Positions 10,734 to 13,409 of a stretch of 64,000 nt of DNA are shown in pieces. Position numbers and translations under genes: made by a program. Source of the stretch: Stigmatella aurantiaca (GTDB taxonomy: Bacteria > Myxococcota > Myxococcia > Myxococcales > Myxococcaceae). The notes beneath the pieces were generated by a model. The model saw only the letters and a list, made by a program, of their open reading frames with translations. It had not been told where the DNA came from and did not search any database. Location: contig NZ_FOAP01000001.1 of NCBI RefSeq assembly GCF_900109545.1, positions 806,001 through 870,000 on the forward strand, in the 5' to 3' direction. Within the stretch, counting starts at the first letter, position 1; each line of letters begins with the position of its first letter.

Positions 10734-11447
10734 TCAGCGGCGCACGTGCAGGCCGCACTCGCGGTTGGCGGCGGACTCCCACCACCAGCGGCCGGCGCGC
10801 TCGTCCTCGTACGGCTTCACGGCCCGCGTGCACGGGGCGCAGCCAATGGAGGGATAGCCCCGGTCATGCAGGGCGTTGTACGGCACGCCGTTCTCCTGGA
10901 TGTAGCTCCACACCTGCCGGGCGCTCCAGGAGACCAGGGGGTTGAGCTTGAAGAGGCCGCCGTGGTCCATGTCCCGCTCGAGGGCCTCCACCCCCGTGCG
11001 GGTGACGGACTGCTCGCGGCGCAGCCCCGTCACCCACGCCTGCCGTCCCTGGAGCGCGCGCCCGAGCGGCTCCACCTTGCGGATGGCGCAGCACTGCTTG
11101 CGCGCCTCGATGCTCTGGCGGAAGGAGAAGTAGCCCTGGGTGGAGACGAGCGTCTCCACGCGCTCCCGGTCCGGGAAGAAGGTCTCCACGTCCAGCCCGT
11201 AGCGGTTGCGGAGCACCTCCATGACTTCGTACGTCTCGGGAGGCAGCCGGCCCGTGTCCAGGGTGAACAGGCGCACGCTGGGGGCGTGCTTGCGCGCCAA
11301 ATCAATGAGCGCCACGTCCTCCGCCCCGAAGCTCACCGCCATGGCCGCGTTCGCACCGAACCGGGCCTCGGTCCAGGAGAGGATCTGCTCGGCGGAGGCG
11401 GTTTTCAGCTCGGCGGAAGCGGCAAGGAACTCATCCTGGGACAACAT
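10734..11447 (-). CDS. cysH: CysH, assimilatory APS reductase ([4Fe-4S] type)
   Basis: Reduces adenylylsulfate to sulfite with thioredoxin or glutaredoxin. From the ATG at 11447 it is 237 aa, with TGGAG 6-7 bases upstream. It has the PP-loop-like SFGAEDVALIDL and the FTLDTGRLPPET segment. Two cysteine pairs, Cys119-Cys120 and Cys203-x2-Cys206, are the ligands that separate [4Fe-4S] APS reductases from PAPS reductases; Cys231 (ECGLH) is the catalytic thiol. The pathway here therefore goes APS to sulfite directly, matching the dead APS-kinase tail in CysN. It is the first gene of the cys operon. Confidence 0.94.
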   Translation of the reverse strand: MLSQDEFLAASAELKTASAEQILSWTEARFGANAAMAVSFGAEDVALIDLARKHAPSVRLFTLDTGRLPPETYEVMEVLRNRYGLDVETFFPDRERVETLVSTQGYFSFRQSIEARKQCCAIRKVEPLGRALQGRQAWVTGLRREQSVTRTGVEALERDMDHGGLFKLNPLVSWSARQVWSYIQENGVPYNALHDRGYPSIGCAPCTRAVKPYEDERAGRWWWESAANRECGLHVRR

Positions 11448-11600
11448 CGCGACTCCAAGAGGCGGAAAAACGGCGCGGCCCACCCCTCCTTTCGGAGCGG
11501 TGACTCACCTGCGTTCTCACCTGGGGTGAGCTTCGTTCGGAGGACCGGGACAACCCCTCGCACTCGTCCACGGCGAGGGGCAGAACGGGCAAAACTTGAC
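11448..11600 (-). promoter_or_regulatory. Structured leader of the cys operon (candidate attenuator or riboswitch)
   Basis: Between the predicted transcription start (about 11,600) and the cysH ATG lie about 150 bases with no gene. Read as RNA it can form three hairpins in a row: CCCCTCG pairs with CGAGGGG over a 13-base loop (11554-11580); CTCACC pairs with GGTGAG over CCA; and CTCC pairs with GGAG closed by a GAAA tetraloop. The octamer CAGGTGAG occurs twice, so the CTCACC arm has two possible partners, as in switch-type leaders. I do not recognise it as any known SAM, SAH or other sulfur riboswitch class. Confidence 0.4.
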
Positions 11601-11636
11601 TTCGCAAAGGCTAGCGGCGCGCCATCGCCAAGTCAA
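11596..11636 (-). promoter_or_regulatory. Sigma70-like promoter of the cys operon with an overlapping dyad
   Basis: On the minus strand a -35 TTGACT (11636-11631) is followed after 17 bases by a -10 TAGCCT (11613-11608). The -35 heptamer TTGACTT is repeated in inverted orientation at 11602-11596, next to the expected start point. Two 7-base arms therefore flank the promoter, a layout suited to a repressor or activator dimer or loop. No regulator gene lies beside it. The -10 match is weak (3 of 6). Confidence 0.45.
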
Positions 11637-11675
11637 CGGATGGTTGTCCAATAAAGCGGACGCCCCTCCCGGGTT

Positions 11676-11714: not shown

Positions 11715-13409
11715 TCAGGAGAGGACGGCCTGAGACTCGCCGGAGTGGGCGTCGTCCATGACGGGCAGGAGGAGGGAGAACGTCGTGCCTTCACCCACCT
11801 GGCTCTGGACGTGAAGCTCACCGCCCAGCGCGGTGATGATGCTGTGGCAGACCGAGAGGCCCATCCCCGTGCCTTCCCCCACCGGCTTGGTGGTGAAGAA
11901 CGGCTCGAAGACGCGCGTCAGGTTCTCCTGCGGAATGCCACAGCCCGTGTCGCTCACCTCCACCCGCACGTGGCGGGAGCCACTCGGGCGCGCGTGGATG
12001 CGGATCTCGTTCGCGGCCTTGCCGCCCTGGCGGATGGCGTGCGCCGCGTTGATGAGCAGGTTGAGGAAGACCTGGCCCAGGCGGGTGGCGTTGCCCCGGA
12101 CGCGCGGCAGGCCGCCGTAGTCCTCCACCAGCCGGGCGTGATCCCTCAGCTCCCGCTCGGCCAGCTTGACCGCGCCGCGGACGACTTCGCCCAGGTCCAC
12201 CGGCTCCGTGTTCATGTCATCCGGGCGCGACAGGGTCCGGAGATCCTTCACGATGAGGCGCACCCGCTCGGCGCCCTCGCGCGCCGAGTTCAACGCATCC
12301 ATCAGCTCCAGCTTCTCCTCCGCGGAGGGCGCCGGGCGGCCGGGTTGCAGCTCCCGGGACAGGTAGTTGAGGTTGCTGAGCACGTAGGAGAGTGGGTTGT
12401 TGATTTCATGGCCCACGCCGGCGGCGAGCCGCCCCATGGAGGCCATCCGGTCGGCGAAGATGAGCCGGGACTGCGCCTCCTCGAGCTGCCGCAGGCTGTC
12501 GCGCAGCTGGGTGTTGGCCTGCTCCAGCTGCGCCGTGCGGGTGTGTACCGTCTGCTCCAGCAGCGCGTTGTAGTGGCGGAAGTGCCGCTCGGTGGCCTCG
12601 GCCTCGGCCTTCATCAGCCGCTGCTTCTCCTCCAGCGTCTTTCCCAGCTCGGAGGCCATCTGGTTGAACGCATGGGCCAGCGTTCCCAGCTCGTCCTTCG
12701 GGTTCTCGGGGAGCTTGACCTCGAAGTTCCCCTCACCGATGCGGCGCGCCGCCTGCATCAGGGCCTTCAAGGACCGGTTCATCGGCACCAGGATGATGAG
12801 CACCAGCCCCAGCAGCAGGGCGCAGGAGATGGCGGGCAGGAGGATCGCCAGCCAGGCCTGCTTCTTCAGCCGGATCTGCGCCCGGTTCAGGTGCTCGATG
12901 CGCTCCTGGTACTCCGCTTCCTGCGCGGCCGTGATGAGCTGGCCGACATTGTTCTCGAACTCCTCGAACAGCCGCCACTCGGTGGTGAGGGGGCTCGTCT
13001 CGAGGGGCAGCGCGCGGACGCGCGCCTCGGCCTCGGTGGTCCAGCTGCGCAGGGCCGCGAGCAACGTCTGGGTGTGCGCCCATTCATCTTCCTGCTCGTC
13101 AGGGCTCAGCGCCTCTTCCGCGGCCGTGGTGTGCTGGAGCAGGGCCTCCTCGCGGGCGATGAGCGCCATCATCTCGAGCTGGAGTGGCTGGGTGCTGGTC
13201 CCCCGGTCCCGGGCGCGCAGCAAGCCGCGCAGGTACTGCTCCGAGGCCAGGTGCAGGCGCGCGAGGCTCTCGTTCTGCCCCTGGATGAGCATCAGCCGGT
13301 CGCGCGAGTGCTGGCTGCGCTGCGTGGCGAGCAGGAGCGTCAGTCCCATGAGGAGCACCAGCCCCGTGGTCAATCCCACGATCAGGAGCACCTTCCAGCG
13401 GACTGTCAT
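11715..13409 (-). CDS. Membrane sensor histidine kinase (HAMP-HisKA-HATPase)
   Basis: 564-aa two-component sensor in the inner membrane. An N-terminal transmembrane helix (about 7-26) is followed by a mainly helical extracytoplasmic domain (about 27-185), a second helix (about 190-213), a HAMP linker (about 214-268), a coiled-coil stretch, then HisKA with the phospho-acceptor His334 (GVGHEINNPLS). A HATPase domain with N-box (NLLINAAHAI), DTGCGIP and GTGMGLSVCHSI ends the protein. The sensor part has no recognisable ligand domain. It is an orphan, with no response regulator nearby. It runs in the same direction as the cys operon but is separated from it by a hairpin and a promoter, so a link to sulfur control is unproven. 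Confidence 0.9.
   Translation of the reverse strand: MTVRWKVLLIVGLTTGLVLLMGLTLLLATQRSQHSRDRLMLIQGQNESLARLHLASEQYLRGLLRARDRGTSTQPLQLEMMALIAREEALLQHTTAAEEALSPDEQEDEWAHTQTLLAALRSWTTEAEARVRALPLETSPLTTEWRLFEEFENNVGQLITAAQEAEYQERIEHLNRAQIRLKKQAWLAILLPAISCALLLGLVLIILVPMNRSLKALMQAARRIGEGNFEVKLPENPKDELGTLAHAFNQMASELGKTLEEKQRLMKAEAEATERHFRHYNALLEQTVHTRTAQLEQANTQLRDSLRQLEEAQSRLIFADRMASMGRLAAGVGHEINNPLSYVLSNLNYLSRELQPGRPAPSAEEKLELMDALNSAREGAERVRLIVKDLRTLSRPDDMNTEPVDLGEVVRGAVKLAERELRDHARLVEDYGGLPRVRGNATRLGQVFLNLLINAAHAIRQGGKAANEIRIHARPSGSRHVRVEVSDTGCGIPQENLTRVFEPFFTTKPVGEGTGMGLSVCHSIITALGGELHVQSQVGEGTTFSLLLPVMDDAHSGESQAVLS

Follow-up and report, generated by a model that had tools for sequence, protein, structure and literature searches.

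Transcription initiation at the cysH operon of the window, the 64,000-nucleotide stretch of Stigmatella aurantiaca DNA analysed here, is probably under the control of a SutR-like XRE-cupin protein that acts at two adjacent boxes, with a leader that is no riboswitch (we put this reading at about 0.72). Computational analysis revealed a conserved box before the operon, a regulon of further boxes, homology of the candidate regulator to E. coli SutR and co-occurrence of regulator and box across genomes. The original prediction had described a dyad-flanked promoter followed by a switch-like leader. The promoter region is real and probably an important control point; the control region is most likely another case of the SutR kind, and the mechanism first proposed is not the best one.

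The minus-strand leader at 11448-11636 precedes eleven co-directional sulfate-assimilation and sulfate-uptake genes, with cysH as the first. Nine of these genes scored above the NCBIfam cut-off (cysH, the N-terminal part of cysG, uroporphyrinogen-III methyltransferase, cysD, cysN, cysJ, cysI, cysT and cysW), and the remaining two were named by eye: a frame for a sulfate-binding protein and, truncated at the window edge, a cysA-like frame. Pfam showed no family in several of the window frames scanned. The leader is single-copy in its genome. The control region contains the following elements:

10734..11447, minus strand: cysH, first of eleven co-directional sulfur genes extending to the left edge of the window
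11608..11613, minus strand: -10 hexamer TAGCCT, 17-nt spacing
11631..11636, minus strand: -35 hexamer TTGACT
11627..11640, minus strand: box 2, TCCGTTGACTTGGC, a weak tandem copy that lies 20 bp downstream of box 1 and covers the -35 hexamer
11647..11660, minus strand: SutR-type box 1, TCCGCTTTATTGGA, identical in 4/4 clade leaders

Leader-like DNA was detected in four of 98 near genomes, the window's own included (G000, G001, G004, G005). Individual alignments with the window leader showed 93% identity in the aligned part for G001, 70% for G004 and 68% for G005, and these four leaders, which fall into two close pairs, give the clade comparison little power for covariation. Both promoter hexamers and their spacing are kept in all four, in line with the TTGACT/TAGCCT promoter predicted earlier, and its role as entry point to the eleven-gene operon fits the evidence. 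A generic promoter scan of the leader called no site; the transcription start is predicted near 11601 on the minus strand. A histidine kinase gene (HAMP, HisKA, HATPase_c; 11715-13409, minus strand) lies directly upstream. Since it shares the strand of the operon and 54 nt separate its end from box 1, read-through from it into the operon is possible.

Control had been ascribed to the interval 11448-11636. The conserved regulatory sequence lies mostly outside this interval, at 11640-11660, and looks like a protein-binding site. Box 1 is the window's only match to TCCGYTWTAWYGGA at no more than one mismatch, with 0.04 expected in 64 kb. Box 2 agrees with six of eight box positions in the window, against a scan mean of 4.4, and its scores across the window's clade (6, 6, 6 and 5 of 8, against scan means of 4.4-4.8) are barely above background. 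Among the 17 box-bearing cysH leaders of the family, the best second box stands exactly 20 bp further on in 14, mostly with 7/8 positions; in two it stands at 27 bp, and in one none was noteworthy. Because the window's copy is weak, its position is the main argument for box 2.

A search of the window's genome with TCCGYTWTAWYGGA at no more than one mismatch gave 14 strand-wise matches at 11 places, compared to 4 for the reversed control. Five of these places precede cysH, a Porin_O_P-like gene (two places), a SATase_N gene and the XRE-cupin gene itself, so that the sulfur genes and the regulator gene share the box. The SATase_N gene is serine-acetyltransferase-like (cysE-like) and is followed by a cysK-like frame. 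The other six places were given no sulfur role, and some of them will be chance matches, as the reversed control also has matches in this genome. The exact box TCCGYTATARYGGA was searched in 51 other genomes, with a match of the reversed control in one. In these genomes, exact boxes precede cysE-like, cysH, sulfate-binding-protein and porin-like genes and, in single cases, a carbonic-anhydrase-like gene and an ABC-ATPase gene; these gene names were read by eye, save for those tested with Pfam. Four boxes in relatives (L124, L136, L138, L153) adjoin genes without evident sulfur role.

The candidate regulator is encoded in the window's genome at G000:C2:176196-176930, and a search for this XRE-cupin protein at E 1e-40 or better was positive in 43 of the 92 family genomes. 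Its frame has a box 160-186 nt upstream in G000 (with one mismatch), G002, G006, G020 and G115. Among genomes scored for both, the exact box occurs in 20 of 25 with the regulator, compared to one of 25 without it (Fisher p 4e-8, relatedness uncorrected); this count omits G000, where the box was defined, and G073, where the regulator was unscored. Five of the 25 regulator-bearing genomes are thus without an exact box. G132 is the one genome with an exact box (G132:C368:71789-71802) in which no XRE-cupin regulator was detected. Second regulator-like matches occur in some genomes.

Alignment of the XRE-cupin protein with E. coli SutR showed 34% identity over 182 aa (E 2e-38), and both proteins contain the Pfam domains HTH_3 and Cupin_2; the window's genome thus encodes a homolog of SutR. 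The gap between ydcO and sutR in E. coli contains the core CGTTATARCG twice, as CGTTATAGCG and CGTTATAACG. This core has three strand-wise matches in 8 kb of E. coli sequence, where 0.03 are expected, and the ydcO-sutR stretch is present in 5,362 of the 5,426 E. coli genomes searched. The consensus of the box before the operon, CGYTATARCG, agrees with the E. coli core, and the window's own copy, CGCTTTATTGG, departs from that consensus at several positions. The published YdcN (SutR) motif is palindromic (PMC8464067). That SutR regulates sulfur utilization genes of E. coli is stated in the title of Yamamoto 2015, as cited in PMC8464067. The E. coli system and the candidate have in common the two domains, a palindromic CGTTATARCG core before the regulator's own gene and, going by that title, sulfur genes as targets. 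They differ in that the boxes described here precede a sulfate-assimilation operon and a cysE-like gene, occur outside the phylum of E. coli and often form pairs at 20 bp.

A regulator of the Rrf2/CymR type was also considered and set aside, because the genome's one Rrf2 match above cut-off has neighbours that, by eye, look like a suf-type Fe-S cluster.

From these data we infer binding of the protein to the boxes, a role for the window's box 2, repression as opposed to activation, and the kind of signal. The SutR-like protein would bind box 1 and the weaker box 2, 20 bp away over the -35 hexamer, and two dimers on one face of the helix could keep RNA polymerase off the promoter. Most likely the protein would repress when reduced sulfur is plentiful, with its cupin domain presumably sensing a sulfur metabolite. 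Repression is suggested by the position of box 2 (11627-11640), which covers the -35 hexamer. Activation from box 1, which is centred near -52 of the predicted start, is also possible; the annotation of the E. coli protein is that of a dual regulator. The leader RNA itself would be no riboswitch and would carry at most traces of a cysteine attenuator.

The leader also contains the RNA and DNA elements from which the original prediction had derived its switch, together with a short open frame:

11596..11611, minus strand: downstream arm of the proposed dyad, not conserved (pairs kept in the dyad: 6/16 in G004, 5/16 in G005)
11580-11573/11561-11554, minus strand: hairpin 1, with 8, 7, 4 and 4 of 8 pairs in G000, G001, G004 and G005
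11530-11525/11521-11516, minus strand: hairpin 2, with 6, 5, 2 and 2 of 6 pairs in the same order
11502-11494/11489-11481, minus strand: GAAA hairpin, with 8, 8, 7 and 7 of 9 pairs in the same order
11517..11597, minus strand: frame that may be left over from a Cys leader peptide; the ATG of G001 is AAG here, followed by FCPFCPSPWTSARGCPGPPNEAHPR and TGA

SAM riboswitches and other sulfur-related riboswitches are placed in leaders before sulfur genes, and the window leader resembles them in this placement. It differs from them in that an Rfam scan gave no family at gathering score; at E up to 10, four sub-threshold matches to unrelated families were obtained (E 0.5-1.8). A new RNA switch, working through competing pairings of 11581-11575, the GAAA hairpin and the 3' arm of that hairpin, is in our estimate improbable. 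The three hairpins are all present where they had been predicted. The GAAA hairpin is largely kept in the clade, its pairs being retained by one-sided changes to G-U and its loops differing from GAAA; hairpins 1 and 2 are not kept in G004 and G005. There, the dyad and these two hairpins pair below the 62% reached by random pairs of alignment columns. Covariation in homologous leaders, the check on a metabolite switch, accordingly failed for the dyad and for hairpins 1 and 2 in this set of four leaders in two close pairs.

The proposal of two partners for one arm held as far as pairing is concerned: GCCCCTC at 11581-11575 can pair with GAGGGGT at 11488-11482 in all four leaders. The arms are invariant, however, and a helix of this length is unremarkable, since it was reached in 52 of 300 column shuffles and in 98 of 300 shuffles in blocks of three. 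In favour of an RNA switch, the number of shared helices is high: the four leaders have 16 of at least 5 bp in common, a number reached in one of 300 column shuffles and in five of 300 block shuffles. Against it, the leader folds with an ordinary energy (z -0.76, equalled or bettered by 47 of 200 shuffles). The stretch CCCGTTCTGCCCCTCGC at 11573-11589 (minus strand) is invariant in all four clade leaders, although its hairpin 1 is not kept.

The second alternative is ribosome-mediated cysteine attenuation, in which slow translation of a Cys-containing leader peptide would prevent termination before cysH. It is suggested by the relatives, many of which seem to control the same genes by cysteine-rich leader peptides instead of the box. 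Leaders were collected from 50 of the 51 cysH-bearing family genomes (96 searched); the cysH start was set by script and is doubtful in some leaders (e.g. L079, L098), which shifts positions. In 32 of the 50 leaders, 4 to 7 Cys occur within a 12-codon open stretch, each matched by no more than 4.5% of 200 shuffles, and a terminator was scored in 26 of these 32. Five leaders without Cys cluster (L065, L066, L069, L074, L076) have one as well. Examples of Cys-dense frames are DRCCCRGCCRACIRC in L088, ACCRCCACPPPSGC in L073 and RCCCCACA in the soil genomes L009 and L010, which are outside the 50-leader set. Two Cys-rich short frames in series were seen before cysH in L068, L072, L073 and other relatives; in some (L072, L077) terminator-like hairpins stand behind both frames, which may represent tandem cysteine attenuators.

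Folding of the relatives' leaders gave a mixed picture. When the nascent RNA ends in the terminator loop, pairing between the sequence after the Cys codons and the 5' arm of the terminator has a mean probability of 0.80 in 27 leaders (this test omits seven of the 34 non-redundant segments), compared to 0.26 with the upstream part shuffled and 0.71 in the ribosome-free state. In the stalled-ribosome state, 24 of the 27 leaders reach a pairing probability of 0.5. At equilibrium the terminator is favoured: with the ribosome on the Cys codons, the antiterminator beats it in only three of 28 scorable leaders, four further leaders having no scorable segment. The antiterminator of alignment A1 (22 leaders) is paired in 92.9% of cells and its terminator in 99.2%, both far above slid versions, and a third helix pairs in 77% of cells, a weak signal; these helix counts leave out a proposed protector hairpin. 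No two-sided changes and hence no covariation were found in the antiterminator and terminator helices of A1, which omits 12 of the 34 non-redundant segments (L008, L009, L010, L023, L065, L066, L067, L069, L071, L080, L089, L104). An Rfam scan of eight relatives' loci with Cys-rich leaders gave no match. Attenuation is nevertheless likely in these relatives, judging mainly from the peptides that their sequences would encode.

Leaders of the trp and his type are the classical amino-acid attenuators. The relatives' leaders resemble them in that the sequence following the Cys codons is able to pair with the 5' arm of the terminator, and differ in the use of cysteine and in the lack of covariation; the likeness is not demonstrable in the window. 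In mycobacteria, a cysteine-responsive attenuator has been reported (Canestrari 2020, cited by PMC9031893 and by PMC13236596). The polycysteine leaderless short ORFs of mycobacteria share with the window's relatives the Cys-rich short frames before sulfur genes. Several of the relatives' frames may likewise be leaderless, by their position after the -10 hexamer. The relatives belong to a different phylum and have a T-run hairpin together with a complementary segment, features that are again not demonstrable in the window.

For the window leader itself, cysteine attenuation is an unlikely explanation, and it appears absent or decayed. The open frame reads FCPFCP...GCP, and G001 has an ATG ahead of it. 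The window has AAG in place of the start codon, and its Cys cluster (3 Cys in 12) is not significant, being matched by 0.255 of 200 shuffles. A T run lies 10 nt behind the GAAA hairpin; no terminator before cysH was scored in any of the four clade leaders, the window's included. The frame shows no codon-position bias, with differences from G004 of 14, 10 and 15 by position, and it has an early stop in G005. A riboswitch or a working attenuator in the window leader is unlikely, as judged from just four sequences.

The inverted TTGACTT arms that had been described as bracketing the promoter exist (11636-11621 and 11611-11596, 13/16 complementary, 9 nt apart), and a 13/16 inverted repeat with no more than 30 nt between its arms was reached in five of 300 dinucleotide shuffles, which is mildly unusual for a feature looked at post hoc. 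That they form the operator of a dimeric repressor is very improbable, since G004 (6/16) and G005 (5/16) keep far fewer pairs than G000 (14) and G001 (13, of which 12 are Watson-Crick) and still have both promoter hexamers, and the upstream arm overlaps the -35 hexamer and box 2.

Initiation control by the SutR-like protein at the two boxes therefore remains our preferred reading for the window, and across the family it stands next to the Cys-rich leaders. With a loose box pattern defined for this analysis, 17 of the 50 family cysH leaders have a box and 32 have a Cys cluster; two have both (L080, L089) and three neither (L075, which lies at a contig end, L108 and L109). The regulator is kept in five genomes with Cys-rich cysH leaders (G115, G120, G122, G128, G133), and the exchange therefore concerns the cysH promoter and not the whole regulon. 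Outside the family, 13 loci were inspected. A box-like TCCGTTATATTGGA precedes cysH in G076 (L178), and a short frame with three Cys, MFGAIQKCVCCRPGASQRRVRAHA, precedes it in G080 (L175), so both control systems may be old. At L173 in G078, cysH is directly preceded by a frame that, on inspection by eye, resembles an Rrf2-type regulator. Group g26 gave no cysH match in any of the 16 genomes listed.

The apparent swap between box and Cys leader is the more interesting and unusual part of the result. Tentatively, and with slightly less than even confidence, we read it as one family with two interchangeable systems, tandem SutR boxes over the promoter in some genera and Cys attenuators (sometimes two in series) in others, with two genomes having both. 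The window leader would then be the decaying remnant of an attenuator after a switch to the protein, and the relatives' leaders would be the first cysteine-sensing attenuators described in the phylum. Among the matches listed in the openly licensed literature, none reported a cysteine attenuator or a SutR regulon in myxobacteria.

For this group of bacteria, named candidates for the regulator, the operator and the regulon of cysteine synthesis take the place of a vague riboswitch lead. SutR, so far a factor of E. coli that has received little study, would become a likely master switch of sulfate assimilation elsewhere. That boxes and Cys-rich frames nearly exclude each other in close relatives would make replacement between transcription-factor control and attenuation directly testable.
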